From Candidatus Latescibacterota bacterium (GTDB lineage: Bacteria > Latescibacterota > MVCY01): 21,846 nt of DNA. Position numbers and translations under genes: made by a program. Shown here piece by piece: positions 2,868-18,215 of this stretch. The stretch's first letter is position 1; each line of letters opens with the position of its first letter. The stretch is taken from NCBI GenBank assembly GCA_030669445.1, contig DAOVDP010000002.1:1-21846 (forward strand). The letters run 5' to 3'. Below the pieces are notes generated by a model, which was given only the letters and a program-made list of their open reading frames with translations, did not search any database and was not told the DNA's origin.

Positions 2868-2913
2868 ATCAAAAGAAAAGTCCTCTTGAGAATCCACCAG
2901 GAGACAAGACAAA

Positions 2914-3112
2914 ATGCGGACTGAAGGCGTAGGACCATCTATAGACGATCAACTCATTGAAGAAGCAAGAGGAGGTAGCCCACATTCTCAGAGCCATCCG
3001 CAGTGAGGAAGAATACCACCATTGCCTTGCCCGAGAGCGTCACATGCTCCGAATCTGGGAAGCAGCACTGCAGAGCTCCAAACAGGGAGTGCGGGTGGAG
3101 GTAGAAGGATGA
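2914..3112 (+). pseudogene. Short frameshifted ORF, possible small-gene remnant
   Basis: Just after the DUF3604 gene, an ATG at 2914 is preceded by AGGAGA at 2899-2904, a well-placed ribosome site. It opens a frame that stops at 3006 after 30 residues. A second frame (open 2945-3112, no ATG or SD of its own) continues with a highly charged, helix-like sequence that includes EEVAHILRAIRSEEEYHH and ends RVEVEG. A single-base shift near 2965-2977 would join the two into a protein of about 65 residues. I recognise no family. It may be a decayed small gene, a frameshifted gene or chance. Confidence 0.3.
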
Positions 3113-3205
3113 TTCTGGGGTGAGTTTCTATATCCATCTGTGCGAATTTTGAACGGGGCGCTGCATCAAAAATTAGGCTCTGAGAGAAGTTTCTGCAGAA
3201 AAGCC
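3113..3205. other. Non-coding gap before the tRNA promoter
   Basis: No convincing ORF, repeat or terminator is seen here. The sequence passes from the GC-rich catabolic genes to the tRNA promoter. Confidence 0.5.
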
Positions 3206-3234
3206 TTGACTTTTCGGATCGGTTAGCCTATTTT
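3206..3234 (+). promoter_or_regulatory. Sigma-70 promoter of tRNA-Asn
   Basis: TTGACT (3206-3211) and TATTTT (3229-3234) are separated by 17 bp. Transcription would begin near 3241, a few bases before the tRNA. The fit to consensus is good at -35 and moderate at -10. Confidence 0.6.
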
Positions 3235-3244
3235 TAAAAATAGT

Positions 3245-3320
3245 TCCCCGGTAGCTCAGTTGGTAGAGCGGGTGGCTGTTAACCACTTGGTCGCTGGTTC
3301 GAGTCCGGCCCGGGGAGCCA
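3245..3320 (+). tRNA. tRNA-Asn (anticodon GTT)
   Basis: A 76-nt tRNA. Acceptor arm TCCCCGG (3245-3251) pairs perfectly with CCGGGGA (3310-3316), followed by discriminator G and an encoded CCA (3318-3320). The D-arm (GTAGCTCAGTTGGTAGAGC) and T-arm (CTGGTTCGAGTCCGG) are canonical. The anticodon loop CTGTTAA puts GTT at 3278-3280, which decodes asparagine. Seven T residues follow directly (3321-3327). The gene marks the left edge of the AT-richer defence-type cluster, but no integrase or second copy of the tRNA 3' end is visible. Confidence 0.97.
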
Positions 3321-3327
3321 TTTTTTT

Positions 3328-3745
3328 GGGGGGAGCGAACTGGCAACTGCTCTAAGCTTTTGCAAATAAATACCCGGACCTTAAGCCCATCCATCCCGCG
3401 GTCTTGGTGCTTGTACGTCGGTTATTTCAGTAAACTGGACTTCCGAGCTTGTTTCTCCCTAATAGATAGACTTCCTCGAATACTTCCCATTACCAATCTA
3501 TTTTGGTTTTGTCCCAGCCGTCCAGCATTCACAGTAGGACAGGTTCGGCCTCCCTATCGGCTGTCTTATGCAATCCTCCTTGGGTATTTTCTCTCCTCTT
3601 ATAATATCTTTCAATTGCTCTTTTTATCCGCTAATAAGCAACTGGGATAATGGGAGAAAGTTGGCAGCAGAGATGGTACCTTCTCCAGCTGACTCAGGGT
3701 ACTCTGGAAGTGACTAACTCTACTCCAACTGCTACAAATCTTCAA
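3328..3745. other. Gap with no convincing gene
   Basis: This stretch of about 420 bp separates the tRNA from the defence cluster. A 96-codon frame crosses it (3360-3650), but it has no ribosome site and an atypical residue mix, and it matches no family I know. I see no tRNA-like repeat, transposase remnant or CRISPR unit. Confidence 0.5.
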
Positions 3746-3775
3746 GTAGTTCCTTGATCAGAGGAACTGCTTTTT
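3746..3775 (+). terminator. Terminator-like hairpin
   Basis: AGTTCCT (3748-3754) pairs with AGGAACT (3762-3768) around a 7-nt loop, and a weaker outer G-C and T-G pair extends it. TTTTT follows at 3771-3775. It could insulate the downstream promoter from read-through. No gene ends immediately before it, so its transcript is unknown. Confidence 0.4.
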
Positions 3776-3800
3776 CCCTCCAGAAAGTTTCTTTTTTTTC

Positions 3801-3829
3801 TTGACATTTTGAATGAATATGAATATAAT
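3801..3829 (+). promoter_or_regulatory. Perfect consensus sigma-70 promoter of the defence cluster
   Basis: TTGACA (3801-3806) and TATAAT (3824-3829) are exactly 17 bp apart, a perfect match to the vegetative consensus. The expected start is near 3836, giving a leader of about 50 nt before the HTH gene. The spacer and -10 contain the direct repeat GAATATGAATAT, and TATTC recurs at 3842-3846 in inverted orientation, so an operator here is possible. Such a strong promoter ahead of a defence cluster would be expected to need a repressor; the first gene product is the obvious candidate. Confidence 0.8.
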
Positions 3830-3887
3830 GTAAAAAGTTTGTATTCGTTACTAATAATATAGGATTTTATCGAACAGGAGTATGACA

Positions 3888-4100
3888 ATGGCTGAACCCG
3901 CTCTGACGATTAAAGAACTAGCCAAGTATCTCAATGTAACAGAGAGGACTATTTACAATCTTCTGGAACGTGGAGAATTGCCGGGATTTAAAGTGGGAGT
4001 GAACTGGAGGTTCAGGAGAGAGGATATTGATAAATGGATTGAGAACAATAAAAAGATGAGTGTTCCAGCAAAAAGTAAGAATAAGCAAGGAAAAGAATAG
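3888..4100 (+). CDS. Excisionase-family (MerR-like) HTH DNA-binding protein
   Basis: A 70-residue protein made almost entirely of an excisionase/HTH_17 winged helix: LTIKELAKYLNVTERTIYNL (residues 7-26), then the wing FKVGVNWRFRREDIDKWI (34-51) and a lysine-rich tail. Such domains serve as phage or transposon excisionases and as small regulators of mobile or defence loci. Start: AGGAG (3876-3880) sits 1 nt from the ATG at 3882 but 7 nt from the ATG at 3888, so 3888 is preferred. It is first in the cluster, behind a perfect promoter and 27 bp before the ATPase gene. With no integrase in the window, local transcription control is more likely than excision. The target is not shown. Confidence 0.85.
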   Translation: MAEPALTIKELAKYLNVTERTIYNLLERGELPGFKVGVNWRFRREDIDKWIENNKKMSVPAKSKNKQGKE

Positions 4101-4127
4101 AAGCCGGCTATAAGGAGGATTTTTATC

Positions 4128-6743
4128 ATGAGCTTCTCTGAGATACTCAAGCCCAGACCAGAGGTTCTATCAGAAGAAGGAATTGATGGGATCATAGACT
4201 TGGCAAACCTTGAAGCCCCTAAAGGCAAAAAACTCGAAGCTAATCCCAAGCGTTTTCTCGCCTTAACATATCCCACAGCAGATGTTTGGCGAGTTATTCA
4301 GAAGTTATCTGATAGATTCTCAGATCGTAAAGATGCCCCAGGATTATTTCTCTTCGAGGGTTTAAAAGGAACTGGAAAATCGCATCTCCTTCTTATGATT
4401 TATCACTTATTTAAGAATTATGAAATTGCCAAGGAGTGGCTTGATTCTCATAAAATGTATTGTGAACTTCCTCAAGATTCGGTAGTGGTTGTAAACAAAT
4501 TCACGGACTTACCTCTTTATTCGATTTGGGATTTTATCTTTGAGCGTTTGACAACTCAGCGTCGCAAAAAAAGTATCGTTCAGCCAGGTCTGGCAGAGGT
4601 TGAGGAAGTTCTTGGAGATAAGAGACTAATTCTTATTCTGGATGAGTTAGAGCAAGGTATACGGGTAATAAGTGATCCATCTTTGAAGGCACAGAATATA
4701 GCATTCCTGCAGATGCTTTCCGAGTGGGCAAATCGCTCCGATAAGGTTACAGTTTTTGCAGGTATTTATAGCGACAAAGAAGAGCCAGGAAGTACCCTTA
4801 AAAGGGTTCCCAGTTGTCGAGTTCAATTCGCATATTCGGCTGATAGAGCGAAGGTAGTACTCCACAGACTTTTTGAGAATTACCTCGAGTTCAATCAAGA
4901 TACCTGCACTCCAATCGTTGATAGCTACTTGAATGCGTGGCGTCGGCAACAGCTTTCTTCAGCCGAGGAATACAGGTCAAAGATGCTTCTAACATATCCA
5001 TTTTTGCCCGAACTGCTTGAGCTGATTTTAGAAAGAGTGCCCGCTCGAGGAGGCTTTCAGAGTGTTCGTGGTGCTTTAGGATTCTTGGCAAATATGGTTA
5101 GATTGACATATGGCAAAGCTTATGTAATAACTGCGGCCCACGCTAATCTACACGACAGGGAAGTAGCTACAAGGCTTTCAGACCTTGATCCAAGTGGGGA
5201 TTTAATCCCAAGAGCACGTGCAAATCTTGATGAATTAAAAGATCAACTATTGGCATCCGAGATCGGTGCCGCTGTTATGCTCTATACTCTCACTAGCTCT
5301 GGTCGCAGCAGGGGTGCTACCCGAGAAGAACTGATAAGACACGTTCTTAATCCTAAGGTTGATATAAACGACTTTGAGAAGACACTATTAGCTTTCCAGA
5401 AATATGCTTCCCATTTTCATGTTCAGGAGGGTAGGTATTTCTTTGATCTCGAAGAGAATGCAGATGCAAAAGTCGAATTTCGCTCTTTAACGATTGATCC
5501 AGATGGAAGCAAGGCTCGCACCTTCCTCCATAAACTCTGGTGCGACGGAATTTTCAGGGAGCCTGACTCTGTTATCTACCAGGGCGAGGAAACGACGAAA
5601 GCTGGATTGGATGAGCTTGATAAAGATCGTCTCCGTTTTGTTCTTGCGCCTCATAAACTAAGTCAAGAAGAACGACACGTGTTATTTCACGGAGTTCCTA
5701 TGCGAAATCAGGTTGTCCTGCTTGAGCCAAAAGATGCAAAATTCGACCTCGATACCCATAGAGATCTTTTGAAATGGGCGCAGCGACAGCTTGCCGCTCA
5801 GGAACTTGCAGGGACTGCTAAGGATTCGGGGCGTAGGGCTGATTATGAAAGAATCATCCGGGAAGACAAAAACCACTGCGTTGATGCAATCAAGCGAGCA
5901 GGACTGGTTTTGATCCGCTGGGAGGAATATGGAAAGATAGCAAAGGGGGATCGAGTTGAGGAAGAAACTATTCCTGGCACTACTAAAGAAGATGTTCTCA
6001 GATTTCTTTCTCAGCAAATGTTTCCCACTCAATTATTTCAGGAGCATCTTTCCTCCCGTTTAAATGAAATTCTCAACCTCACTGTAAAAGATATTGACAG
6101 ACAATATCGTTCTACTCCCGGGTTTCCTGTTCCTACAACCGTGAGATCAGTTCGTCAGGCTCTTCGAGAATTATGCCGAAATAAGCAGATTAGCATCAAA
6201 CATCAACGAGGCAATTTTTGCGGAGAGAATCCAAGTCTCACAGAGACAGAGCTTTTTGAGGCAATTATAGGAGAACCTTTTGAGCCCTCACCTATCCATC
6301 CTCCGACACCTACTTTGGAGGTAGAAGGGCAAAGGCCGCCTTCCGAAGTTGAAAGAGAGGGAGCCGTTACAACTCCTCCCACAATCGTTACTGCGAAAAA
6401 GCAAGAAATTAGCATTCCACCGCAGAGTGGTGCAGGGGAACTGCGGCAAACTATTGCTCTTCGACTTCAAGAATATCCTGATGCAAAGATGACACGCATT
6501 CGCGCTACTATATTTTTGGAAAAGAGCACAGGTGACCTTAGTACTCTTCCCGCTTCAATCAGGGGAAGTCTCAGTGGCCAGGGAAACCTTACCGTAGAAA
6601 TCACCGTCAGCAAAGATGGTGAGTTTACTAAAGGTGAGGTGGAGAGTATTGTTGAATCGCTTCCCTGTCTTCCTGAGGCAAGCTATGGGGCCCGATTGGA
6701 GCTTTTAATCCCATCTACAGAAGAAGGTAAAGAAAATGAGTAA
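4128..6743 (+). CDS. BrxC/PglY/DUF499-like P-loop ATPase of a BREX-type cluster
   Basis: An 871-residue cytosolic P-loop ATPase. Walker A is GLKGTGKS (78-85), preceded by FLFE as in DUF499/BrxC-type proteins. Walker B is RLILILDELEQG (166-177), with D172/E173 as magnesium and catalytic acids. A long helical middle region follows, then a proline-rich linker (about 716-750) and a compact C-terminal domain (about 770-871, containing VEITVSKDGEFTKGEVE) that resembles the tail of DUF499 proteins. BrxC/PglY proteins usually exceed 1000 residues, so this is short. A GGAGG site precedes ATG 4128. The last 8 bp overlap the PglZ gene, implying translational coupling and a physical partnership. The ATPase assignment is firm. 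The BrxC-like call rests on architecture and the adjoining PglZ gene. Confidence 0.8.
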   Translation: MSFSEILKPRPEVLSEEGIDGIIDLANLEAPKGKKLEANPKRFLALTYPTADVWRVIQKLSDRFSDRKDAPGLFLFEGLKGTGKSHLLLMIYHLFKNYEIAKEWLDSHKMYCELPQDSVVVVNKFTDLPLYSIWDFIFERLTTQRRKKSIVQPGLAEVEEVLGDKRLILILDELEQGIRVISDPSLKAQNIAFLQMLSEWANRSDKVTVFAGIYSDKEEPGSTLKRVPSCRVQFAYSADRAKVVLHRLFENYLEFNQDTCTPIVDSYLNAWRRQQLSSAEEYRSKMLLTYPFLPELLELILERVPARGGFQSVRGALGFLANMVRLTYGKAYVITAAHANLHDREVATRLSDLDPSGDLIPRARANLDELKDQLLASEIGAAVMLYTLTSSGRSRGATREELIRHVLNPKVDINDFEKTLLAFQKYASHFHVQEGRYFFDLEENADAKVEFRSLTIDPDGSKARTFLHKLWCDGIFREPDSVIYQGEETTKAGLDELDKDRLRFVLAPHKLSQEERHVLFHGVPMRNQVVLLEPKDAKFDLDTHRDLLKWAQRQLAAQELAGTAKDSGRRADYERIIREDKNHCVDAIKRAGLVLIRWEEYGKIAKGDRVEEETIPGTTKEDVLRFLSQQMFPTQLFQEHLSSRLNEILNLTVKDIDRQYRSTPGFPVPTTVRSVRQALRELCRNKQISIKHQRGNFCGENPSLTETELFEAIIGEPFEPSPIHPPTPTLEVEGQRPPSEVEREGAVTTPPTIVTAKKQEISIPPQSGAGELRQTIALRLQEYPDAKMTRIRATIFLEKSTGDLSTLPASIRGSLSGQGNLTVEITVSKDGEFTKGEVESIVESLPCLPEASYGARLELLIPSTEEGKENE

Positions 6744-7713
6744 TTTGATTATGGATGACTTTCAGAATCTAATTGCACAAGGACCAAGGGTCAAATGGTT
6801 AGAAAAATGGCTATTAGAGGAGGTCTGGGCGACTGAACGTTACCAAGTACTTTCTCCTTCCGAGTACCTAAAAGCGGGCGAATCAAAGATCAACGAACTT
6901 GAAGAGATTATAGCACAAGCGGCATATAGACTTTACGATGAATTTCTTGATGAGCCTCCACAAGGCAGAAATGTTTTGGATTTCATAGAAAGTGAGCAAC
7001 CTTGTGCTTTAGTTATTTTTGATGGACTTTCCCTTCGAGAAGTTCCTGTTATTCTGAACCTTGCTCAAAAATCGAGTTTCAGGATTGAAGAAGTCAGAAT
7101 ATCCTATTCAACATTACCCACAGAAACCATTGATTTCATCGAACAGAGATTGAAATTCGGAAGTGTTGCCCCATCGCAACTACCGAGGAGAAGAGAAATC
7201 AATGAAAAAGGGATTGTCGCATATTACTATGACAGTCCAAACCAACAGCATTCTCTTGATCGAAATTCAGAGAAGCTTCTTTTGTGGTCAGCGTTTCCCG
7301 ATAACACCTATAGTGATAGTGGTGCTCGTTTTGTCCAACACTTTGAAGAAATTCATACCCTCCTTGAAACAGCCTGGCTCAACACAGTTCAGCAAATTCC
7401 TCGGGGACGAAAGATTTTGATAACCAGTGATCATGGATATGTTTATTTGGGCTCGGGACTTTCCTTTACCAGAACAAATTCAGAGTTAAGGCCATTGACA
7501 GAATATCTTAGAGGCGAACGGTATAGACGCTTAACTGAAGAAGATGCCAGGCCACCCGAACATCCTGATCTGGCAGTATATCCTGGCCGTAAAGTTGCGG
7601 TTTTGAGGGGACGTATTCAAACTCATCCTCCGGGTAAGGCGGCCAGTAGACTATATAAACACGGAGGGCTGTCAATAATGGAAATGTTAGTACCCTGGAT
7701 CGTTTTAGAATAG
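6736..7713 (+). CDS. pglZ: Short PglZ-domain protein (alkaline phosphatase superfamily)
   Basis: A 325-residue protein carrying the PglZ signatures in order: ALVIFDGLSLREVP (91-104, metal-binding D96), LLWSAFPDNTYSD (182-194), ITSDHGYVYL (229-238, D232/H233) and YKHGGLSIMEMLVP (307-320, H309). PglZ proteins are alkaline-phosphatase-fold hydrolases and the hallmark of Pgl and BREX phage-resistance systems. Their exact chemistry there is unsettled. Typical PglZ proteins run to about 600-900 residues. This one keeps the catalytic core with only a short helical N-terminus and ends a few residues past the HGGLS motif. Its ATG lies inside the last codons of the ATPase gene. Family membership is well supported. 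The name is used for the family, not proven orthology. Confidence 0.82.
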   Translation: MSNLIMDDFQNLIAQGPRVKWLEKWLLEEVWATERYQVLSPSEYLKAGESKINELEEIIAQAAYRLYDEFLDEPPQGRNVLDFIESEQPCALVIFDGLSLREVPVILNLAQKSSFRIEEVRISYSTLPTETIDFIEQRLKFGSVAPSQLPRRREINEKGIVAYYYDSPNQQHSLDRNSEKLLLWSAFPDNTYSDSGARFVQHFEEIHTLLETAWLNTVQQIPRGRKILITSDHGYVYLGSGLSFTRTNSELRPLTEYLRGERYRRLTEEDARPPEHPDLAVYPGRKVAVLRGRIQTHPPGKAASRLYKHGGLSIMEMLVPWIVLE

Positions 7714-7722
7714 GGGAAAGAT

Positions 7723-9375
7723 ATGGATACAATTGATGTTAAACGACTGCTTCGACAACCTGAAGGACAGTTTCTTGAACGAAAGGGTTGTTATGAATAC
7801 ATCAAAGGGCAGTGGAGACTCAGAAAGGCGAGAGGTGTCGCCAGAGATGTCGCTGAGACATTATCAGCCTTCGCCAATGCTGATGGAGGTACTCTTTTAC
7901 TGGGAGTGGACGATGATGGAAATGTCTCAGGAGTTGATTTTGCAAAAGATAGGCTCAGAGTTATCCAGGATGCTCCTAAGAACTTGATAAAGCAACCCCT
8001 GCGGACTAATATTAATGAAATCCCTTTCCAGGGGAAGCGACTCTTCCTTTTCACTGTCAACTGGATGCCAGGTGTATATCAACTGACTGATGGTCGCTAT
8101 CTTCTGCGCATTGGTGATTCAAATATGCCTTTTCCTGCAGATCAGATTGAACTGCTCAAGTCTGGGAAAAGAAAAGCTATTTTTGAAAGTCGTATTGAAC
8201 CAACCGCCTCGTGGGATTATATTTTTAAAGAACTTATTGTAGACTTTGGCAAAAGAATAGGAATAGATAAAAGCCCTGAAGAAATACTATTTGAGTATCG
8301 CTTAATAGACTACGATAATGGGAATCCCAAGTTTAAGTTGGCCAGTCTCTTGCTTTTCGGGAAAGATCCTCTCCGCTGGCATCCCAGATGTGGTATTGAT
8401 TTTGTCAAATATGAAGGGACTGAAAGAAAACTGGGTAGAGAACTGAATATCATCAAAAGGGCAAGGATAGAATTACCTTTGATAAAATTGATTGAAGAAG
8501 CATACAAAACAATTTCTGCCCAGATCAAAGAACGGCAATACCTTCACGACCTATTCTTTGTCGAAAAGTTTGAATATCCTACTTTTGCCTGGCAGGAGGC
8601 AATTGTAAATGCTGTTGCTCACCGGGATTACAGTATTCAGGGATTGTCCATTGAGGTATGTATGTTTGATGATCGGATAGAGATTCGGAGTCCTGGTCTG
8701 CCTCCTGAACCGGTGACCTTGGAAAGAATTCTCAAAAGGGAACGAGTTCATGCCAGCAGAAATCCGCTCATTGTTCGGGTACTAACTGATTTGGGATACA
8801 TGCGAGAAACCGGTGAAGGTATTCCGAGGATGTTTGAAGAAATGGAAAAGAACGGATTGTATCCTCCGAAGATTGAGATTGTGGCTGATTCTCTATTTTC
8901 TGTCATCTTGAAAAACCAGCCTATGTACTCAATCGATGATATGGAATGGCTCAAGCAGTTTTCTGATTTGGATCTCAATCCAAATCAGAAAAGAATGCTC
9001 ATTTTTGCAAAAGCTCATGGTAATTCGTTCACCAGCAGGAATTACCAAAAGCTCTGTGATCTGGGTATTTATGAGGCAGGAAAAGAAATAAAAGAAATGA
9101 TAAGGTTAAGTGTCATTACATTGAATAAAAAGGGTGGAAGGATATATAGGCTTCAACCAAAACAAAAATGGGGGATTGTGGAGGAACCAACAGAGTATGT
9201 TCCTCTAAAGCAGATAATCTATAAGAAAGGATTTCTGAAAAACTCTGATATCCAAGAAGCGCTCGCTGTTTCTCGGTTTAAAGCAACAAAATTAGCCAAG
9301 ACATTTGTAGAAATAGGGCTCTTGCGAAGAGAGGGAAAAGGCAAGGGCTCAAGATATTACGCAGTCAAAGGGTAA
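7723..9375 (+). CDS. AlbA_2 (Schlafen-like)/COG2865 putative regulator or ATPase
   Basis: A 550-residue protein with an N-terminal AlbA_2 domain (about 12-145: FLERK at 17-21, then FANADGGTLLLGVDDDG at 50-66), a GHKL-like ATP-binding C-terminal module (E292, N296 and HRDY 300-303, then GYMRETGEG near 357) and a winged-helix tail from about 430. Proteins of this type are annotated as transcriptional regulators or ATP-dependent helicase-related (COG2865). AlbA_2/Schlafen domains bind nucleic acid and some are nucleases. It begins 9 bp after pglZ behind a GGGGAAAG site and ends 124 bp before the methyltransferase. That gap carries an operator-like triplet, so local regulation is a sensible guess. 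A role as sensor or effector is also open. Confidence 0.85.
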   Translation: MDTIDVKRLLRQPEGQFLERKGCYEYIKGQWRLRKARGVARDVAETLSAFANADGGTLLLGVDDDGNVSGVDFAKDRLRVIQDAPKNLIKQPLRTNINEIPFQGKRLFLFTVNWMPGVYQLTDGRYLLRIGDSNMPFPADQIELLKSGKRKAIFESRIEPTASWDYIFKELIVDFGKRIGIDKSPEEILFEYRLIDYDNGNPKFKLASLLLFGKDPLRWHPRCGIDFVKYEGTERKLGRELNIIKRARIELPLIKLIEEAYKTISAQIKERQYLHDLFFVEKFEYPTFAWQEAIVNAVAHRDYSIQGLSIEVCMFDDRIEIRSPGLPPEPVTLERILKRERVHASRNPLIVRVLTDLGYMRETGEGIPRMFEEMEKNGLYPPKIEIVADSLFSVILKNQPMYSIDDMEWLKQFSDLDLNPNQKRMLIFAKAHGNSFTSRNYQKLCDLGIYEAGKEIKEMIRLSVITLNKKGGRIYRLQPKQKWGIVEEPTEYVPLKQIIYKKGFLKNSDIQEALAVSRFKATKLAKTFVEIGLLRREGKGKGSRYYAVKG

Positions 9376-9397
9376 GTTATAGAACAATCTCAATTAG

Positions 9398-9469
9398 TTT
9401 ATGAGCCCTTCAAATATGCTCCGGTTAAATTTAAGACTGGCTCATAAAGGAATAAAATTGGTTCATAAA
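9398..9469. promoter_or_regulatory. Three-copy operator-like element
   Basis: TTTATGAGCC (9398-9407) is the exact reverse complement of GGCTCATAAA (9439-9448). GGTTCATAAA (9460-9469) is a third copy with one change. Centres are 41 and 21 bp apart, close to four and two helical turns, so all three face the same side of the DNA. The last two lie in the spacer and start region of a plausible promoter. This is the only sizeable gap within the cluster. A repressor or activator site controlling the methyltransferase half is the simplest reading. Confidence 0.55.
9431..9458 (+). promoter_or_regulatory. Possible internal promoter for the methyltransferase half
   Basis: TTAAGA (9431-9436) and TAAAAT (9453-9458) are separated by 16 bp, an imperfect but workable sigma-70 promoter. 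One operator-like copy fills the spacer and another covers the expected start point. Confidence 0.4.
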
Positions 9470-9499
9470 TAACACAAAGTTCGCTAAGTTCAGGATATT

Positions 9500-12400
9500 A
9501 TGATTAAATACGCCATTGAAGACTCTTTTCCCATCGTGGAAATAAATCGGCTGGCGATTCCCGAGAGAAATGCCTTCAAACCCATATATCAGATGCATAA
9601 GTGGTTTGCTCGCCGGGCATCTTGTGTTTTCCGGGCAATTCTTCTTGGCTGTATGAAACCCCTTCCACTTGATGAGAACGGAAAACCGATCAAGAACGGT
9701 GCTGAGGTCATTATGGAGGAATTTTACAAGGACCACAGCAACGACCCGGATACTAATGGCAAGGTTGTCCTCGATCCCTTTATGGGGGGTGGAACGACAG
9801 TCGTTGAGGCACTGCGGCTTGGTTGCAAGGTGATCGGCATTGACCTCAATCCAGTTGCTTGGTTCATCGTAAAGACAGAGATTGAGCCGGTTGATATCGG
9901 CGAACTCAAGGCATCATTCGAGCGTTTGGCAGAGCGGAAGGTTGCCTGGAGCGGTAAATCGGTCAAGGAGACGCTGCTTGAGCAGTACAAAACCGAATGC
10001 TCTTGCTGTGGGGCTGGCAGAGAAGAGGCTGGTATTATTTATACCTTCTGGGTCAAATCTGCTATTTGCACCAATCCTCTTTGCAGAAAGGAGGTTCCTC
10101 TTTTTTCAGACTATGTTATTGCTGCCAAGTCTCCTTCAATAAAGTATTATCGTGATGTGGAATGCCCTGAATGTGGAAAGATATTTGACTGGGAGTTAGA
10201 ACCCGCAAGTCTCATTGCTGAACCCAGCCTCTGCGTAGTAAGCCCATCATATTCAGCAGGCATTGGCCGAACTACTGTCCGGTGGAGTTACGCCTCTATT
10301 CTGAACAAAGACGCTATAGTAAAGTGTCCCTGGTGCTACAAGGAAGTAAAACCAAAGCTAAGATCATCTAAGACAGAGCGAAAAAAAATTCAACTTACGG
10401 TTCTCCTGTGTCCTTATTGCTATGCTGTGTGGCAGTGGAGAGGCGAGCTTCCCGAGGAAGTCAGTTGCCCTGTCTGCAAGAAGAGTTATAATCCCAAGAA
10501 GGGCAATGTTCCTAAGAACGGTTGGTTTCTATGTGCTGCTTGCGGGCAGACAGACAGGATAATAAACTCCATCCGGAGTCTGCCGGAGGACCAGCTCCTC
10601 CCCATGCGTCCCTATGCCATCGAAGGATATTGCCCTGTTTGCGCTGGGGATATTGAAGAAGAAAAAATAGACATCCAGAACGAACTTTTCGGAGAAGAAA
10701 AGAAGAAAAAGGTAAAAAGATTCCCTGCTCACCTTTGCCTGCTCACAAAAAACAACGGGAAGTTTTTCAAGAGAATCACTCCTTCTGACCTTGCCAGATA
10801 CCAGAAAGCCTGTGAAATGTGGGAGAAAGAAAGGGAGAATCTGGCCTATCCAAAGCAGAAAATACCAGAAGGATTTAATACTAATCAGATGATAAAACAT
10901 CACTATAACTACTGGCATCAGATGTTTAATCCTCGGCAGCTACTTTGCCTGTCAACATTAGTGGAGGCGATAAATGAGGAGCAGAATCAGGCATTGAAGG
11001 AGATGCTGATAAGTGCATTTTTTCAGACACTACGGAATCAGTGTACATTCTGTTTTTACAATCTTTGTGCGGATAAGCTCGAACCCTTATTTTCGAGAAA
11101 AGATTACGCCCCGCCTAATTTCCCTCTAGAAAATTCAGTATGGGGAACGAAATATGGTAGGGGTACATTTGTCAGCGTTATTGATAAGATTGTAGTTGGC
11201 AAAGAGTTCTGTTGGAAGCCTTTCGATAGACAGGTAGTTGAGATTAAAAAAGATGGTGTAATCCTTAAGGATATTCCAAGTGGAGAAGTTATTAAGGGTA
11301 ATAATGATAACATCCTACTTGAGGCCAAAAACTCAGCTAATCTTGATAGAATGGTTGACAGCCAAGTTCATTTTGTAATTACAGACCCTCCCTACGCTCA
11401 GAATGTAAATTATTCCGAAGTGGCTGATTTTTTCTATGCATGGCTTAGATTGATTCTTGGTACGAAATATTCTTGTTTTGCACCGGAAGTAACTCCAAAA
11501 GAAGAAGAAATAATCCAGCATAATCTTCGGGGAAAAACTCTTGAAGATTTTCAGGAGGGGTTTACACGAGTATTCGCGCTGAGCGGCTCTAAGTTGAAAG
11601 ATGAAGGACTATTAGCTTTTACCTTTCATCACGAGGCGAATGCTACTTGGGATGTTGTTCTTGAAGCAATTATGAAGTCAGGTTATTACATACAGGCAGT
11701 ATATCCCTACGAATCCGATGCAAGGAAAGGCGGATCTATGGGAGCTCAAAAGATTGCCTACGACCTCATTCACATCTGCCGCAAGCGCCCTCCTGGGCAA
11801 GAGACTCAACAAAAACGCTCCTGGGCGGGTATTCGCCAGGAAATCCGGCGCAGGGCCCGGGAGGAAATCACGGCCATTGAGACGGGAAGCTATGGTCAGG
11901 AGCCACTTTTCCCTGCTGATGTAAATATCATACTCATTGGTAAGTGCCTTGAACTCTACAGCCGTCACTACGGTGCTGTTGTTGACCACGTGGGGAACGA
12001 AGTTACGTTGAAACAGGCACTTGAAGAGATTCGCGTAATGGTAGACCAGTTACGAACAAAAGAGCAACCCTTGCCATCAGAGCTGGATGATATTGATCCT
12101 GAATCCTATGTGTATCTAACCTGCCTCTGTGACCGCAGGGAGATTAAGAGTGATGATGTTCATAAAGCTACCAGAGGCATCCTGGAACCTGACACCTTGA
12201 TTAAAGCAGGCCTTATGACCAAAGGCAGAGCTGGTCGGGGTAGAACTTATGAGGTAAAACAACCCCTTGAGCGGTTCAATCTTCTTCTAGAGAAGTTTAA
12301 ACAAACTTCAGCAGTCCAGCGGAATCTTTTTGGGGAAACGGATATGCCAAAGCTCAAGGGGAAGACATATTTCATTGACTATATTCATTTTCTTATGGTT

Positions 12401-12571
12401 GTTGTTGAGGGTGGAGAGAATATTGTGCCCTGGTTGGAACGATTCAGAGGAGAAACGCCAAGACTCAGAGCCGCTTGTGAGTACTTAGCGGTAAAGAATA
12501 GGAGTCTTGCTCCTACTCTCAAGAGAATCCTTGATTCAATGGATATAGGACCACTCTTTCAGACGAGGTGA
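9500..12571 (+). CDS. DUF1156 adenine-specific DNA methyltransferase with zinc ribbons
   Basis: A 1023-residue DNA methyltransferase. The N-terminus is the DUF1156 segment (about 5-50, with AFKPIYQMHKWFARR). The SAM-binding motif is VLDPFMGGGTT (90-100), followed by the acidic IGIDLNP strand. A cysteine-rich insert (about 167-382) has at least six CxxC pairs, as in zinc ribbons. The catalytic motif DPPY (629-632) indicates amino-methylation, most likely N6-adenine. The C-terminal 300 residues are not assigned. Start: ATG 9500 follows AGGA at 9491-9494. DUF1156 enzymes occur in BREX-like and other defence clusters with DUF499 ATPases and SNF2 helicases, where they mark self DNA. The target sequence cannot be read. 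The protein gene 4 bp downstream is likely coupled. Confidence 0.92.
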   Translation: MIKYAIEDSFPIVEINRLAIPERNAFKPIYQMHKWFARRASCVFRAILLGCMKPLPLDENGKPIKNGAEVIMEEFYKDHSNDPDTNGKVVLDPFMGGGTTVVEALRLGCKVIGIDLNPVAWFIVKTEIEPVDIGELKASFERLAERKVAWSGKSVKETLLEQYKTECSCCGAGREEAGIIYTFWVKSAICTNPLCRKEVPLFSDYVIAAKSPSIKYYRDVECPECGKIFDWELEPASLIAEPSLCVVSPSYSAGIGRTTVRWSYASILNKDAIVKCPWCYKEVKPKLRSSKTERKKIQLTVLLCPYCYAVWQWRGELPEEVSCPVCKKSYNPKKGNVPKNGWFLCAACGQTDRIINSIRSLPEDQLLPMRPYAIEGYCPVCAGDIEEEKIDIQNELFGEEKKKKVKRFPAHLCLLTKNNGKFFKRITPSDLARYQKACEMWEKERENLAYPKQKIPEGFNTNQMIKHHYNYWHQMFNPRQLLCLSTLVEAINEEQNQALKEMLISAFFQTLRNQCTFCFYNLCADKLEPLFSRKDYAPPNFPLENSVWGTKYGRGTFVSVIDKIVVGKEFCWKPFDRQVVEIKKDGVILKDIPSGEVIKGNNDNILLEAKNSANLDRMVDSQVHFVITDPPYAQNVNYSEVADFFYAWLRLILGTKYSCFAPEVTPKEEEIIQHNLRGKTLEDFQEGFTRVFALSGSKLKDEGLLAFTFHHEANATWDVVLEAIMKSGYYIQAVYPYESDARKGGSMGAQKIAYDLIHICRKRPPGQETQQKRSWAGIRQEIRRRAREEITAIETGSYGQEPLFPADVNIILIGKCLELYSRHYGAVVDHVGNEVTLKQALEEIRVMVDQLRTKEQPLPSELDDIDPESYVYLTCLCDRREIKSDDVHKATRGILEPDTLIKAGLMTKGRAGRGRTYEVKQPLERFNLLLEKFKQTSAVQRNLFGETDMPKLKGKTYFIDYIHFLMVVVEGGENIVPWLERFRGETPRLRAACEYLAVKNRSLAPTLKRILDSMDIGPLFQTR

Positions 12572-12575
12572 TTAA

Positions 12576-13007
12576 ATGCCTGGATATCAATTAGTAGAAG
12601 TAGGGAATCTAAGCCCAAATAAGAATAATGGTATCCCACCGGATGAAAACAAGATAGGCTTTTTGGATTTCTTACGGGAGATTGGGGGAAACCCATTTCC
12701 TTTCCCCAAATTTCACCGGGTCCAGGTAGGCGGACTGGAAGAGGTACTTTTTGCTGCCCGTTCCCACCAGGAAGAGATGGCGCTCAGAATACATAGCCTT
12801 CTTAGAAAAGGGGCACAAGACCTGGAGAAAAGGCTCATTGAAGTTCAGATTGTATTCCGGGGTAAACTCGTCAGGGGCGATACCCTCTGGGTGGAATACA
12901 GAAATACGAAACTTCCGATCGGACACATTTTCGGTTCGCCCATCAGACAAAGTGATGCCAGAAATAATCCATTTTATAGAACGAATTTCAATCTTACCAA
13001 TGGATGA
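12576..13007 (+). CDS. Unrecognised 143-residue protein between methyltransferase and helicase
   Basis: I do not recognise a family. The protein is soluble, with no signal peptide or membrane segment. Residues 1-35 look flexible (SPNKNNGIPPDENK), and the middle has a helix (GLEEVLFAARSHQEEMALRI, about 53-72). The C-terminal half (85-143) looks beta-rich (VQIVFRGKLVRGDTLWVEYR). It begins 4 bp after the methyltransferase stop and ends 6 bp before the helicase start, so it is tightly embedded in the operon and was probably retained for function. Possible roles are a methyltransferase specificity or adaptor subunit, or a helicase partner. These are guesses from position only. Confidence 0.75.
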   Translation: MPGYQLVEVGNLSPNKNNGIPPDENKIGFLDFLREIGGNPFPFPKFHRVQVGGLEEVLFAARSHQEEMALRIHSLLRKGAQDLEKRLIEVQIVFRGKLVRGDTLWVEYRNTKLPIGHIFGSPIRQSDARNNPFYRTNFNLTNG

Positions 13008-13013
13008 TTTCAG

Positions 13014-15857
13014 ATGAAGGTCAAGGAAAATACTCGGCAAAAAATTAATATAGGGGAAAGGGTAAAGGTTTATGGATTGGAGCACCTCGGAACAGGCGAG
13101 GTTCTCAGAGTGCGTGAATCAGGAGGGATTTATCAGGTTGATGTTGTGTTCGACTATGTTGATGGGCGACGACTAGAGACTGTCTCGATAGATAAACTTG
13201 AGCCTGTGCCTGATCTATTTCAACGACTTTCTGAGGGGGATGTGGATTCACCACTCGATTTCTTTTTGAAACAGCTTGCATATCAACTGCCACTTAGTAA
13301 TGCAGGAGGTGAACTTTCCAACTCAAGAACGGACCTTTTACCTCACCAGATTCTCCTGACCCGGGATATTGTTGAATCTCAGCGGCGCCGATTCCTTGTT
13401 GCGGATGAGGTCGGGTTGGGCAAAACGATTGAGACTGGGCTTATCATAAGAGAACTGTTTGCTAGGAAGGAAGCGGAACGGATCCTTGTAATTTGTCCCG
13501 CAGGATTGGTTAGAAATTGGCAAGACGAACTTAGAGACTGTTTCAGGTTACATTTTGATATACTCGGTATTGATTTCAATGATACAACGCCTCTTTCCTG
13601 GGAAAACCATCAGCGTGTAATAGCCTCAATAGACACAATAAAGCAGTCCAGAAGAATTGAAAGACTGAAGCGGGCGCCCAAGTGGGACCTGATTGTGTTT
13701 GATGAAGCTCATCATTTGAGTCGTAAAAAATATGGCAAAAAAATAGATTACACCCAAAACTATCGACTTGCAGAGGCATTAAGAGGTTACACGCGAGACA
13801 TGTTTTTCCTTTCGGCTACTCCTCATCAGGGGGATGCATATCAATTCTGGTCCTTGATTCAGCTCCTTGATGATCAGTTATTTGAATCCCCGGAGGTTAT
13901 GAGAGATCATAGGGGACTTCTCAACCGGGTAATGTTTCGTCGCACTAAGCGCGAGGTTACTGATGCAGAGGGCAATCCTATCTTTATGCGTCGTCAGGTT
14001 CATACACAAACATTTCCCTTAGCAGCACGTGAAAGATGGTTCTACGATCAGCTTACCGAATATTTGCGGGAAGGTTATGGAGTTGCAGGAATAGGCCAGA
14101 AGAAAACTACAAGTAAGCAACGAGCTGTGGGTTTTGTGATGGCTACATTCCAGAAGATGATGTCTTCAAGTCCCCGTGCCATTCGTCAGGCCTTGAGACG
14201 AAGACTCTTAGTATTGCTTGCCCGCGAACAGATGGCTCTGGATAAGGGGACCCAACGGACTTATGCTACTGGCTTAGCAGAGAAAATACTGAGAATTCAA
14301 GAAGAGATGAGGAAATTAGCCATTAAAATTGGATCAATTTCATCCTCGCCAGAGCAGGAGGCTGTTGCCGATACTCATATTGCAAAAGTGAAACAGCGAC
14401 TTGCTCGAAAAGGTTATCTCGGGGGAGAGATCACCTCTTGGGCTCTTGATGTTGAGGAAGAAGGCGAAGATGCTATTTATGCCGAGGCAGTAATCCCGGA
14501 CGAGGCTCAAAAGGTGCGAGATCTTATCAAGCTTGCTCCAGAAGGGCCAGATCGAAAATTCGATACGCTCATACGGGCAATCGAACAAGTTAGAAGACTC
14601 TCTCCAGAAGAGAAAGTCGGCATTTTTACTCAATATAGGGAAACATTGAAATTCTTGAAAGAAGAATTAAGCAAATTATATGGTGAAGGAAAGGTTGCTA
14701 CTCTTAAAGGAGGGCCTCTTGAAGACAAAATTGCGGCTATAGAGGTTTTTTGGGAACCAGATGGAGCACAGTTCTTGATCAGTACCTCTGCTGGAGGAGA
14801 GGGGATAAATCTTCAGGTATCTCATATTCTCTTCAATTACGATCTTCCCTGGAACCCAATGGCAGTGGAACAACGGATAGGACGCATTCACAGATATGGA
14901 CAAACTGACACTGTGCAAGTTTACAATCTTGTTGCTGAGGATACTGTTGAAGAGCGAATCTATAGTCTGCTTGAAAAAAAACTATTGGAGATTGCATGCA
15001 CTATCGGCAAGGTTGATCCAGTAACTGGGCAAGTCGTGGAAGATTTTAGATCAGAAATCCTTGGATTCTTAGGAAGTTCTCCTAACTATCAAGACCTTTA
15101 CAAGAAAGCTTTAATTGACAAAGATTATCAAAGGACTGAGCAAGAGATAGCTGAGGCAATAGAGAAGGCACGGCAAGCCAGTGAAGCCCTTCGTGAACTT
15201 GCCCAGGATCTTGAGTCTTTTAATTTTGGGCGATACAGAAACATGAAAGGCCCGTTCACTCTTGATAACCTCAAGCTTTTTGTAGAAAGAGGTATTTTAA
15301 GATTGGGAGGAGCATTCATACCTCAGGGGGATGTTTTCTATATTGAGACTCCCACGGTTTTGCATCGGTATGCCAATGTTGCGCCTCGGTATGAAAACGT
15401 GGTGTTTGATAGGAAACTTGCTATGAGGAAACGAAAAGCTGAATTGTTTGGTATTGGTCATCCTTTAGCTGATGCCCTCATAGAACATCTCAAAGGGCCT
15501 CTTTTTCCTGGTGAAGTTTGTATTAACGAAGCAGTCTCTGAGACTTGTCCAATTTCAGTTAGGTGCGTTTTTGTAGTGAATTTTGAAAAAGAACTGAAAA
15601 GAATTTTCTATAAAGGGTTCAATTTGAATGACGACGGGAAATTAGAAAAATTCCAGCCAGAGGAGGATATAGAATATCTTTCTATTCTAAGAAATAGATT
15701 GAAGCAGACAGGCTCTGAAAAAACAATTTCAATTCCTATGTGGCTTAAAGACAGAGTTGCTTCAATTGTCACGGAAGAGGAGACTCGGTTAAGGGCTAAA
15801 TTCGATAAGGTCTTATCTATAAATAGTAAAGTGCTTGGATTGGCTGTTCTGTCTTGA
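13014..15857 (+). CDS. SNF2/RapA-type DNA translocase (BrxHII-like helicase)
   Basis: A 947-residue superfamily 2 SNF2-type ATPase. After an SH3/Tudor-like N-terminus (about 12-64) come motif I DEVGLGKT (131-138), motif II DEAHH (230-234), motif III SATPHQGD (267-274), a RecA-like second domain with IFTQYRETL, and motif VI QRIGRIHRYGQ (620-630). The lysine- and acid-rich stretch about 685-735 looks helical, and the last 200 residues are specific to this group. Such proteins translocate on double-stranded DNA rather than unwinding it. BREX type 3 and related systems carry a similar helicase (BrxHII). Start: ATG 13014, 6 bp after the previous stop, with GGATG upstream, implying coupled translation. 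No terminator is visible after the stop. Confidence 0.93.
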   Translation: MKVKENTRQKINIGERVKVYGLEHLGTGEVLRVRESGGIYQVDVVFDYVDGRRLETVSIDKLEPVPDLFQRLSEGDVDSPLDFFLKQLAYQLPLSNAGGELSNSRTDLLPHQILLTRDIVESQRRRFLVADEVGLGKTIETGLIIRELFARKEAERILVICPAGLVRNWQDELRDCFRLHFDILGIDFNDTTPLSWENHQRVIASIDTIKQSRRIERLKRAPKWDLIVFDEAHHLSRKKYGKKIDYTQNYRLAEALRGYTRDMFFLSATPHQGDAYQFWSLIQLLDDQLFESPEVMRDHRGLLNRVMFRRTKREVTDAEGNPIFMRRQVHTQTFPLAARERWFYDQLTEYLREGYGVAGIGQKKTTSKQRAVGFVMATFQKMMSSSPRAIRQALRRRLLVLLAREQMALDKGTQRTYATGLAEKILRIQEEMRKLAIKIGSISSSPEQEAVADTHIAKVKQRLARKGYLGGEITSWALDVEEEGEDAIYAEAVIPDEAQKVRDLIKLAPEGPDRKFDTLIRAIEQVRRLSPEEKVGIFTQYRETLKFLKEELSKLYGEGKVATLKGGPLEDKIAAIEVFWEPDGAQFLISTSAGGEGINLQVSHILFNYDLPWNPMAVEQRIGRIHRYGQTDTVQVYNLVAEDTVEERIYSLLEKKLLEIACTIGKVDPVTGQVVEDFRSEILGFLGSSPNYQDLYKKALIDKDYQRTEQEIAEAIEKARQASEALRELAQDLESFNFGRYRNMKGPFTLDNLKLFVERGILRLGGAFIPQGDVFYIETPTVLHRYANVAPRYENVVFDRKLAMRKRKAELFGIGHPLADALIEHLKGPLFPGEVCINEAVSETCPISVRCVFVVNFEKELKRIFYKGFNLNDDGKLEKFQPEEDIEYLSILRNRLKQTGSEKTISIPMWLKDRVASIVTEEETRLRAKFDKVLSINSKVLGLAVLS

Positions 15858-15860
15858 AGA

Positions 15861-16031
15861 TTGCATTGAGTAGTAAGCTAGCAGAGCCGTTCGGATGGTG
15901 GAATGAATGTGGGAAGTAGGACTACCGAGAACCAAAATACAGAGCAGTTGGGCAGGTTTTTGGTCTGTTTCTTTAAGGGTATTTCCACCGGGGAAAATCT
16001 GCGAAACATGGAACTAAAGGAGTGTCAAATT
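15861..16031 (+). pseudogene. Degraded COG2865 fragment
   Basis: This gap matches an internal part of the COG2865 gene downstream (about 17260-17430). By eye, 32 of 40 bases agree between 15887-15926 and 17285-17324. The matching frame reads VRMVE, then TGA in place of a Trp codon, then MWEVGLP. Later another frame gives GENLRNMELKECQI against EENLRKMGLNERQI, so indels have shifted the frame. It is a dead fragment of a related gene, not a copy of the one downstream, given the divergence. Confidence 0.7.
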
Positions 16032-16095
16032 ACTTTCCCAAATTTGACTGTGTTTTAAGGTAAAGAAGCAAAAGTTTTTCAATAGGAGAAGATGT

Positions 16096-16602
16096 TTGGA
16101 CGTTAGGTTATTGCTTTTACTCACCTTAATGGCAGCATTTGCCGGTGGGGCTATATCGACAGCCATCGCTGAATTGCTTCGGGGCATATATGTTGCCCGT
16201 CGAGAGAGGAAACATCTGTTGGCCGAGCTTTTCCAAGATGCATCTTCGTGGCTTAATAGCACCGAGGACCTGTTCACGAAACCAAGAACCAGTTTAGCCG
16301 GTGCACCTATTGAGATTCCTAGCCTGTACCGAGTGTTGACCGGTAATTGTTTCTCTCGAGAGCGCGATGCTGAACTTCGCGAACAAGTACGATCAGTGCT
16401 CCGAGCAGCGAACATGTACAATGCGAAATTGGAATTTGCCAGTCAACGTCAAGCACAAGATTGGCATACGGGGAAAAACCTGCGTGCAGAGGCGGCTACG
16501 TATGCCAAGCAGACTCTCATCCCAAAGCTGGAAAAGCTACGTAGTATAGTTCAGAAGCATAGGTCTTTTAGGATTGGCAAGGGCGTGGATACAACTTATT
16601 AG
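16096..16602 (+). CDS. Unrecognised single-span membrane protein
   Basis: A 168-residue protein with one N-terminal membrane segment (about 4-24, LLLLLTLMAAFAGGAIS) followed by a basic stretch (RRERKH, 36-41). The long soluble part is probably in the cytosol and looks helical. The start is taken as TTG 16096 because AGGAGAA (16084-16090) lies at good distance. An ATG at 16092 is out of frame and stops after four codons, and the in-frame ATG at 16129 lacks a ribosome site. I know no family. It lies in the same frame as the next ORF, separated by one TAG stop. Function is unknown. It could be an unrelated insertion into a decayed COG2865 locus. Confidence 0.6.
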   Translation: MDVRLLLLLTLMAAFAGGAISTAIAELLRGIYVARRERKHLLAELFQDASSWLNSTEDLFTKPRTSLAGAPIEIPSLYRVLTGNCFSRERDAELREQVRSVLRAANMYNAKLEFASQRQAQDWHTGKNLRAEAATYAKQTLIPKLEKLRSIVQKHRSFRIGKGVDTTY

Positions 16603-16623
16603 CGATTGCGGTGGAGTACAGAA

Positions 16624-17631
16624 ATGAATACCTCCTTCATATTAAGCAGTATGCCCTGGGATTCCATTACGGGCGATTTTTTATTTGACGAAATAGATAC
16701 TGAAACCGTGGGCCGTTTCATCCGTCTTGCCGTGGCAAAGAACAGGCTCACCGACTTATCTGTCGATGAACCCCCTTTAGTAACCCTGGAGAAACTGGAG
16801 CTTATATCGGGCGGAAAATTGACGAATGGTGCAGTTCTTCTTTTCGGAAAGAATCCGCAGAAACATTTCATCAATCACTGCATCCGCATCGGGCGGCTCA
16901 AAACCGAGACGACCATCATCGACGACAAATGGGCGAGGGGAAACTTGTTCCAGCAGTTTGAGGAAACACTGAATGTGCTGAAGCAATACATAGCTGTCCG
17001 CTATGAAATCACAGGAATACAGAGGGAAGATATCTGGGACTATCCGATACCTGCCCTCCGTGAGGCGGTGCTGAATGCCCTCATTCATCGGGATTACTTT
17101 GATATAGCAAATTTCATTCAGATCAAGGCTTACGATGATCATGTCTGGTTTTTCAACCAGGGTAAGCTTCTGGAAGGCATTACTATCGAAGAACTGAAAA
17201 AGCCTCACAGCTCACATTTACGCAATCCTCTGATTGCCAAAGCGTTTTACCTTGCTGGCTACATTGAGCAATACGGTAGTGGCACGGTTCGAATGGTTGA
17301 ATGGATGAAGGAAGCAGGGCTACCAGAACCGGAATACAGAGAGGCAATGAGCGGTTTTTCGGTCTATTTCTACAAAGATATTTACACAGAAGAGAACTTG
17401 AGAAAGATGGGGTTGAACGAACGGCAGATTAAAGCAGTGCTGTATGCGAAAGAGAAAGGGAGAATCACGAATAAAGAGTATCAGGAGACCAATGAAGTTT
17501 CCCGACAAACCTCTGCACGCGAGTTATCGCATCTTGTGCAGTCAAATATATTGTTGAGACACGGAAAAACAGGAAGAGATACATATTATACTTTGGTCAG
17601 GAAAACAGCAGAAAGCAAGAATGCCTCATAA
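16624..17631 (+). CDS. COG2865 ATPase/regulator lacking the AlbA_2 domain
   Basis: A 335-residue protein matching the middle and C-terminal parts of COG2865 proteins. It has the GGKLTNGAVLLFGK segment, the GHKL-like motif EAVLNALIHRDY (147-158), the GYIEQYGSGTVRM segment and a C-terminal winged helix (from about 258). Full members carry about 130-200 further N-terminal residues with the AlbA_2 domain, and those are absent. Start: ATG 16624 with GGAG at 16613-16616, 7 nt upstream, better than the in-frame TTG at 16606. The good ribosome site suggests it is expressed despite truncation. It is only distantly similar to the 7723-9375 gene product. It could be a stand-alone regulator or a decaying gene. 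Confidence 0.7.
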   Translation: MNTSFILSSMPWDSITGDFLFDEIDTETVGRFIRLAVAKNRLTDLSVDEPPLVTLEKLELISGGKLTNGAVLLFGKNPQKHFINHCIRIGRLKTETTIIDDKWARGNLFQQFEETLNVLKQYIAVRYEITGIQREDIWDYPIPALREAVLNALIHRDYFDIANFIQIKAYDDHVWFFNQGKLLEGITIEELKKPHSSHLRNPLIAKAFYLAGYIEQYGSGTVRMVEWMKEAGLPEPEYREAMSGFSVYFYKDIYTEENLRKMGLNERQIKAVLYAKEKGRITNKEYQETNEVSRQTSARELSHLVQSNILLRHGKTGRDTYYTLVRKTAESKNAS

Positions 17632-17672
17632 ACGCCTCAAACGCCCAATAAATGCCTCACAAACGCCTCAAA
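17620..17672 (+). repeat. Imperfect 22-bp direct repeat at the end of the COG2865 gene
   Basis: The 22-bp unit at 17620-17641 recurs at 17651-17672 with one mismatch (T to C at the tenth base), 31 bp apart. Its core is AAACGCCTCAAA. The stop codon of the COG2865 gene falls inside the first copy, so the repeat spans the coding end and the gap. Confidence 0.75.
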
Positions 17673-17931
17673 GGGGATCAGAACGGGTCACAAAGGGGAC
17701 ATAGAGACGCCAGACGCTAAATAATCAGAGAGCCCGAAAAAGAAAAGAGCTAAACAAAAGATAAAAGAGCCGGAAATTTTGTCTTATAGACGTTCTAAGA
17801 AAACACAAGCAAATAGCGCAAGTTTCTATTAATAAGCAAATTGAGGCAATAGTTGGAATCGCTTGATTCTGACTTTAGGGGCTTGCATTCCTTTGTTAAC
17901 CGATAGCTTGCAATCCCAAGAAATTTTTTTC
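17673..17931. other. Gap with no convincing gene
   Basis: Purine-rich sequence after the repeat. I see no ORF with a ribosome site, no clear terminator and no mobile element. It marks the change from accessory DNA back to housekeeping-type genes. Confidence 0.5.
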
Positions 17932-17960
17932 TTGACAAGTTGGTTGAAGTTGATTATAAT
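17932..17960 (+). promoter_or_regulatory. Perfect consensus sigma-70 promoter of the DUF4139 gene
   Basis: TTGACA (17932-17937) and TATAAT (17955-17960) are exactly 17 bp apart. Transcription would begin near 17967, about 250 nt ahead of the start codon. Confidence 0.8.
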
Positions 17961-17966
17961 TATTCA

Positions 17967-18172: not shown

Positions 18173-18215
18173 GTTGCCCGAGAAGATGCTCAAAAAATAA
18201 AAGGAGGTGACCGAG

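Follow-up and report, generated by a model that had tools for sequence, protein, structure and literature searches.

A probable Type-3 BR defence operon in a Latescibacterota genome, with a Schlafen-type gene in a candidate cargo slot

What kind of defence system is encoded by a compact gene cluster of a Candidatus Latescibacterota bacterium, and why does it carry a Schlafen-like gene in its midst? The cluster lies in positions 1 to 21,846 of contig DAOVDP010000002.1 (assembly GCA_030669445.1); we call this whole 21,846-nucleotide stretch the window. A preliminary description had listed a helix-turn-helix (HTH) protein, an ATPase, a PglZ protein, an AlbA_2 protein, a DUF1156 methyltransferase, a 143-residue protein and an SNF2 helicase, tightly spaced on one strand, and had suggested an undescribed subtype of bacteriophage exclusion (BREX) systems with AlbA_2 in its core. 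The list is sound, as all seven are full open reading frames (ORFs) on the plus strand between 3882 and 15857, with overlapping or closely spaced neighbours. The operon is intact, real and BREX-related. From sequence comparison, we put at about 75% the reading that it is an intact, restriction-modification-like operon of the published Type-3 BR (BREX-related) class, in which a Schlafen-type gene occupies a cargo slot. We observe directly the gene content, its conserved order, the sequence motifs and the slot pattern; every function is inferred.

Type-3 BR systems were set out by Rakesh & Krishnan in January 2026 (PMC12839542, cited throughout for its main text). They comprise a DUF499 ATPase, a DUF1156 methyltransferase and a nuclease-free SNF2 helicase; nearly all also have an active PglZ that stands alone, and of 569 taxa 82% have an iSTAND gene. 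The window holds a DUF499-type ATPase, a DUF1156 N6-adenine methyltransferase with a zinc-finger insert, an SNF2 helicase without a nuclease, a stand-alone PglZ and a small protein that is probably iSTAND-like. By the order and kind of its genes, the core matches Type-3 BR and is not an undescribed subtype. The BREX-like nature proposed earlier is borne out. The reduced ATPase and PglZ are indeed short or stand-alone, but these are features of Type-3 BR and not novelties. One or two 4C zinc fingers are named for the published methyltransferases, whereas the window protein has eight CxxC motifs; the window helicase has 947 residues, against about 940 for BrxHII.

Several other known systems were compared. 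Hma, which the same paper counts among BR systems, consists of three genes only (HmaA, HmaB and HmaC). The window helicase and methyltransferase match Hma models and the ATPase does so weakly, but two more genes, for PglZ and for a small conserved protein, stand among them, so the locus is not Hma in this sense. In Type-1 BR systems the helicase includes a nuclease domain in 79% of taxa (PMC12839542), unlike in the window. BREX type 3 has in common with the window a PglZ, a BrxHII-kind SNF2 helicase, a methyltransferase and, probably, a BrxF-like small protein, but the window ATPase is nearer to DUF499 models, the window PglZ is much shorter, and the BrxA expected in a type 3 locus was not seen in the window. 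No BrxA model occurs in the PADLOC matches of eight window proteins (the best 25 each for the methyltransferase and helicase; the 72-residue HTH protein excluded). The profile search against PADLOC that had been proposed gave as best matches HmaA for the helicase (341 bits), HmaB for the methyltransferase (135 bits) and, as partial matches to the ATPase, DUF499 (40 bits, 2.2e-11) and HmaC (31 bits, 1.9e-8). ARMADA/DISARM was considered because SNF2 and DUF1156 genes are present, and was rejected: no mention of PglZ, DUF499 or DUF1156 turned up in a term search of the ARMADA paper (PMC12458937).

Relatives of the operon, labelled with L numbers, came chiefly from a PglZ-profile search of GTDB, which gave 259 loci; the best 80 were used. 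Among these 80 the same order mostly recurs where the contig is long enough; L045, in which the SNF2 gene lies upstream, is an exception. Plasmid relatives in Tenderia, Aminobacter and Ensifer have the same order of ATPase, PglZ, methyltransferase, small protein and SNF2 genes; in two haloarchaeal plasmid relatives the helicase is absent from the stretch read. The operon is not a chance assembly, because this order recurs in loci from many phyla. We split the loci by rank into a close set of 42 (the window, L001 and L011-L050) and a far set of 45 (L006-L010 and L051-L090). Two fragments with 41% and 49% identity (L052 and L054) are close-like and were kept in the far set; they stay outside the slot count because neither has a methyltransferase. 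L014 was dropped where its contig ends, and L017, L034 and L045, where no methyltransferase follows on the contig, were classed by the gene after PglZ. Cargo ORFs were picked on the operon strand only. What was sampled is the part of the tree closest to the window, and this branch may be uncommon in the data of PMC12839542.

The junction between PglZ and the methyltransferase is where the Schlafen-type gene of the window lies. Of the 42 close loci all but one can be assessed here: 14 of these 41 have a tight junction and 27 carry cargo, three of the latter classed by the gene after PglZ. The gap is at most 19 bp in 14 of 38 close loci and at least 382 bp in the other 24, with none in between; among the far loci, 12 of 41 have a gap of at least 300 bp. 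At the next junction, the ATPase and PglZ lie at least 300 bp apart in just one of 40 close loci (L037) and in none of 38 far loci; three more close gaps measure 70, 159 and 224 bp. In L037 the PglZ frame is broken, with the protein match starting at 671 and the ORF at 965. A second sample came from four phylum surveys, in which a PglZ relative was found at E 1e-30 in 5 of 395, 3 of 387, 3 of 392 and 8 of 395 genomes (centre genome counted). Six of its contigs were not in the first set: the ATPase-PglZ junction is tight in all six, and of the four that show the PglZ-methyltransferase junction, two are empty and two hold a ribbon-helix-helix (RHH)-PIN pair. Further downstream, cargo lies between the methyltransferase and the 143-residue gene in 5 of 26 close and 0 of 19 far loci, and between the latter and SNF2 in 5 of 25 close and 1 of 17 far loci. 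Genes seen between the methyltransferase and SNF2 in L020, L026, L027, L033 and L040 include an AAA_15 ATPase, ABC-3C parts, an Eco57I-like methyltransferase, DUF433 and HEPN_Swt1.

Most of the genes in the slot are toxin-like. The first cargo gene in the 27 close loci belongs to one main PIN family in 15, to other PIN classes in three and to the AlbA_2-HATPase type in three (the window, L011 and L012); the rest are two Fic genes, a HEPN-MNT, an MNT-like PDC-S09 protein, a DUF3800 and a 288-residue protein of unknown family. The PIN class was assigned by Pfam in 10 of 18 loci and in the others by BLAST or tblastn to those. A small partner ORF of one BLAST cluster accompanies the main PIN family in 10 loci; the member tested is RHH-like (19.5 bits, cut-off 20.5). 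At least six of the 15 main-PIN loci carry a further gene behind the PIN gene, such as a Schlafen-restriction endonuclease fusion (L043 and L047), an AlbA_2-HATPase gene (L034) or a DUF3800 gene (L035), while the further ORFs of L048 and L050 match no family among those searched. Distant operons have in the slot OLD-type ATPases, AlbA_2-HATPase, DUF1828, a subtilase and several ORFs without a clear family. The slot of L133 has a 5-kb filling, an RHH-PIN pair followed by several ORFs, one of which is weakly like the AAA_15 cargo ATPase of L020 (30% identity). PADLOC, run on ten cargo ORFs, left seven without a match.

How does this compare with the published account? Schlafen, PIN and HEPN are described there as effectors linked to BREX and BR loci generally, often inside the operon, while Type-3 BR neighbourhoods have no conserved stand-alone nucleases, and auxiliary nucleases are lacking or retained in limited instances (PMC12839542). 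Most close relatives here, in contrast, have a slot filled mostly with toxin-like genes. The PglZ-methyltransferase slot thus appears to be a new part relative to that account, because the account says that Type-3 BR lacks or rarely keeps such nucleases. A term search of its main text found neither Fic nor the words 'between PglZ', and among the titles listed by the literature searches aimed nearest at this question none is on such a slot.

The cargo seems to have come rarely and to have stayed. On a tree of 44 rows, 38 of them labelled (the short rows L023, L037 and L039 were left out), the nine slot states need nine changes, one above the minimum of eight, whereas shuffled labels need 20.0 on average and none of 200 shuffles was as low as nine. 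The main PIN family, the AlbA_2-HATPase class and Fic require one change each and the second PIN class, with two rows, requires two. Free shuffling of cargo was rejected, as three of the four multi-member classes cluster on the tree, the exception being the second PIN class. On this tree gain and loss are indistinguishable. There may be six unrelated kinds of cargo, one of them possibly ancestral; counted in this way, with the two PIN classes merged and HEPN-MNT merged with MNT, at least five entries are implied. The low change count therefore suggests that cargo from unrelated families arrived rarely and later remained with the operon.

The cargo of the window is a 550-residue protein (7723-9375, plus strand) that begins 9 bp after PglZ. 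Pfam finds an SLFN_AlbA_2 domain (8.8e-19, 68.6 bits against a cut-off of 25.3), which is the domain expected of a Schlafen endoribonuclease, and a HATPase_c_4 domain (2.6e-23). Residues E14, E19 and D54 of the AlbA_2 domain, which we take to be the Schlafen catalytic triad, are conserved in L011 and L012 and also in L060, a distant locus. The best PADLOC label, prokaryotic Argonaute (99 bits), was rejected as domain sharing, because Pfam finds the Schlafen and HATPase domains and nothing Argonaute-like. The same kind of protein fills the slot in L011 (titled Nitrospirae, 70% identical) and L012 (titled Nitrospinae, 72%). The window and these two loci form one clade (100/100), and therefore the operon seems to travel with its cargo. 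The AlbA_2 gene is, on sequence comparison, not a core part: in the neighbourhood survey that the preliminary description had called for, the position after PglZ is empty in 14 and holds a different gene in 24 of the 41 assessable close loci. Thus 38 of the 41 lack it directly after PglZ. The AlbA_2 gene nevertheless belongs with this operon lineage, because the same order is found in L011 and L012.

The core proteins themselves are supported to differing degrees. The 871-residue ATPase (4128-6743) is of the AAA+, DUF499/BrxC/HmaC kind. Its Walker A and B motifs can be read. Pfam matches AAA_22 (1.4e-5) at 25.8 bits, slightly below the cut-off of 27, and among long close relatives Walker A was readable by pattern in 31 of 35 and Walker B in 35 of 35. 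The 325-residue PglZ (6736-7713), which overlaps the ATPase by 8 bp, is of alkaline-phosphatase type and has a weak Pfam match below cut-off (0.022). A profile built from eight relatives matches the solved PglZ-domain protein 9nv3 (1.8e-6), and also response regulators (8ted, 0.0015). In an alignment of 47 rows D189, D232, H233 and H309 are found in all 47, D96 in 46 (one gap) and T131 in 46 (one serine); these six are presumably metal-site residues. The 1023-residue methyltransferase (9500-12571), 124 bp after the AlbA_2 gene, matches DUF1156 (7.2e-6, 26.5 bits, above the cut-off of 24) and N6_N4_Mtase (1e-12). All 28 long close relatives have the DPPY string that it carries, as do 6 of the 36 distant relatives. 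The number of CxxC motifs in the 28 is three (6 loci), four (1), six (5), seven (13) or eight (3), hence at least six in 21 of 28; in the 36 it is two (5), three (21), four (5), five (4) or six (1). The 947-residue helicase (13014-15857), whose nearest models are HmaA, BrxH and DrmD, lies 6 bp after the 143-residue gene and matches SNF2 (2.2e-21); Pfam finds helicase domains only and no fused nuclease. All of these genes are on the plus strand, as is the 72-residue HTH gene (3882-4100), a probable operon regulator of the excisionase family (3.4e-18). It lies near MAD1 of the MADS system but, at 76.4 bits, under the family cut-off of 80, and no other MADS-named model is among the NCBIfam matches of the window proteins.

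The 143-residue protein (12576-13007, plus strand, 4 bp after the methyltransferase gene) is the least familiar part. Both flanking genes are preserved in 27 close loci, counting the window, and 25 of these have its gene; 25 relatives were aligned. It has no readable Walker A, and a Pfam scan of 26 family members gave no convincing match (best E 0.015, in one member). The predicted model (predicted local distance difference test score 92.7) has 50 listed structural neighbours, all titled AAA+ or RecA/Rad51-type; for a few of them, such as Shu1 and Psy3-Csm2, we assume that type of fold. The best PDB sequence match is RecA (0.00048), with no single stretch passing alone. The family profile also matches a 132-residue haloarchaeal protein from the same operon position (probability 94%, E 1.6e-7), and a 165-173-residue protein in the same place in distant operons has, by eye, a similar order of strands and helices in its predicted model. 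Viral contigs and plasmids searched with the 143-residue protein alone gave no matches. A fold resembling a P-loop NTPase, as expected for the iSTAND part of Type-3 BR, is supported though not proven by the model, and the protein is probably the iSTAND (BrxB/BrxF-like) component. The earlier statement that the window has no BrxA, BrxB or BrxF-like gene thus holds for BrxA and is probably wrong for BrxB/BrxF, because the 143-residue protein looks like that component.

A number of observations pull against the overall reading. Two junctions other than the slot hold cargo, each in five close loci, and some slot ORFs match no known family. Nine changes for nine states indicate cargo that is inherited with the operon and not freely swapped. 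The AlbA_2 protein matches the solved Schlafen 8 marginally (0.061, residues 30-67). The NCBIfam match of the ATPase to DUF499_antiphage is partial (4e-16, 58 bits, against an equivalog cut-off of 1200). For the 143-residue protein, the structural Z scores of at most 4.9 lie within the range that a common arrangement can give. Foldseek gave no match at E 0.001 or below for its model or that of the 165-173-residue counterpart and also listed unrelated folds, and the profiles of these two do not match (probability 3%, E 0.014).

What would such an operon do? The core is probably, by analogy with what has been proposed for Type-3 BR (PMC12839542), a modification-guided restriction system with PglZ as the nuclease. 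The DUF1156 methyltransferase would mark host DNA at adenine. The DUF499-type ATPase, the iSTAND protein and the SNF2 helicase would inspect and move along unmarked DNA, and PglZ, as a metal-dependent phosphodiesterase, would nick or degrade it. The HTH protein may set expression from a strong sigma-70 promoter-like site. This site (3801-3829, plus strand; TTGACA, 17 nt, TATAAT) matches 12 of 12 consensus bases, 52 bp 5' of the HTH gene, and was recognized by consensus match alone. The cluster had been placed at 3801 to 15857; its end is that of the SNF2 gene, whereas 3801 is the first base of this consensus and not a gene start. The AlbA_2-HATPase protein is probably a back-up RNase, which would halt translation once the main system is beaten or blocked. 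This is favoured by analogy with the anticodon nuclease PrrC: a type I enzyme linked to it keeps it silent, and an anti-restriction factor of the phage switches it on (PMC2610378). Both cases have in common a toxin tied to a restriction system, but the proteins are unrelated, and control of the slot genes by the core complex is hypothetical. Related operons often have other toxin-like genes at the position of the Schlafen-like gene, and this pattern suggests that a socket for a back-up weapon is built in. The fullest form of this idea is tentative, and we would not expect all of it to hold: a Type-3 BR branch with a dedicated weapon socket, which unrelated cargo (Schlafen, PIN, HEPN-MNT, Fic and others) entered at least five times, held silent by the core and released upon phage inhibition, in a modular version of the PrrC arrangement.

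Other explanations share part of this evidence. The slot genes could be selfish toxin-antitoxin or addiction modules, which would secure the retention of the operon in the genome and play no part in immunity. The RHH-PIN and HEPN-MNT pairs do look like complete modules of this kind, and some related operons are on plasmids or a phage-like contig; yet the Schlafen, Fic and DUF3800 genes have no evident antitoxin and occupancy is biased to one junction, and we regard this view as doubtful. The AlbA_2-HATPase protein might be no RNase but a DNA-binding protein that regulates the operon, though this is unlikely. COG2865 proteins are often annotated as DNA-binding regulators, and the HATPase_c_4 domain, the weak C-terminal matches to winged-helix families, all below cut-off (MarR 0.013, SoFic-like_C 0.0056), and the 124-bp gap before the methyltransferase gene would suit such a role. 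The operon already has an HTH gene, however, the junction elsewhere holds PIN, HEPN-MNT and Fic, and E14, E19 and D54 are conserved. Neutral insertion within a defence island would explain the cargo at the two downstream junctions (5 of 26 and 5 of 25 close loci), but it is improbable given the bimodal slot gaps, the cargo classes kept along the tree and an ATPase-PglZ junction that is widened to 300 bp or more only at a broken PglZ frame. It is very improbable that the operon is an undescribed BREX subtype in which AlbA_2 belongs to the core. The gene does occupy the same position in the window, L011 and L012, and three phyla are named by the records or relatives of these loci, but the core matches that of Type-3 BR (PMC12839542) and the gene after PglZ differs in the great majority of assessable close loci.

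The surroundings of the operon offer some further observations. The source genome is partial (62% complete, 1.29 Mb, 208 contigs). A tRNA-Asn gene just 5' of the operon (3245-3320) is a possible integration site, and no repeat of it of at least 16 nt is listed within 2868-18250. In an empty-site comparison with four relatives from the same genus, the upstream neighbour gene has no clear orthologue, and G014 alone offers a close match (94%) to the downstream neighbour. A second perfect sigma-70 consensus (TTGACA, 17 nt, TATAAT; 17932-17960) lies 5' of an ORF at 18207, and the two promoter-like sites have in common a 37-nt stretch with 81% identity. A second HATPase_c_4 gene, without an AlbA_2 domain, is found at 16606-17631, next to a 168-residue ORF with a hydrophobic start on its 5' side (16096-16602); it may be a relative of the slot gene that has decayed or serves in regulation. 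Elsewhere, a phage-like 43-kb IMG/VR contig (L001 and L005) has tail-fibre, weakly primase-like and integrase genes together with the ATPase, PglZ, methyltransferase, 143-residue and SNF2 genes, with an empty slot. By its gene content this may be a defence system borne by a phage or an integrated element.

If the slot holds up, it tells us where to seek back-up effectors in BREX-related operons, and it offers a simple test, at a single junction, of the idea that toxins guard restriction systems. The published view of Type-3 BR as relying mainly on PglZ (PMC12839542) would then need some qualification as well.

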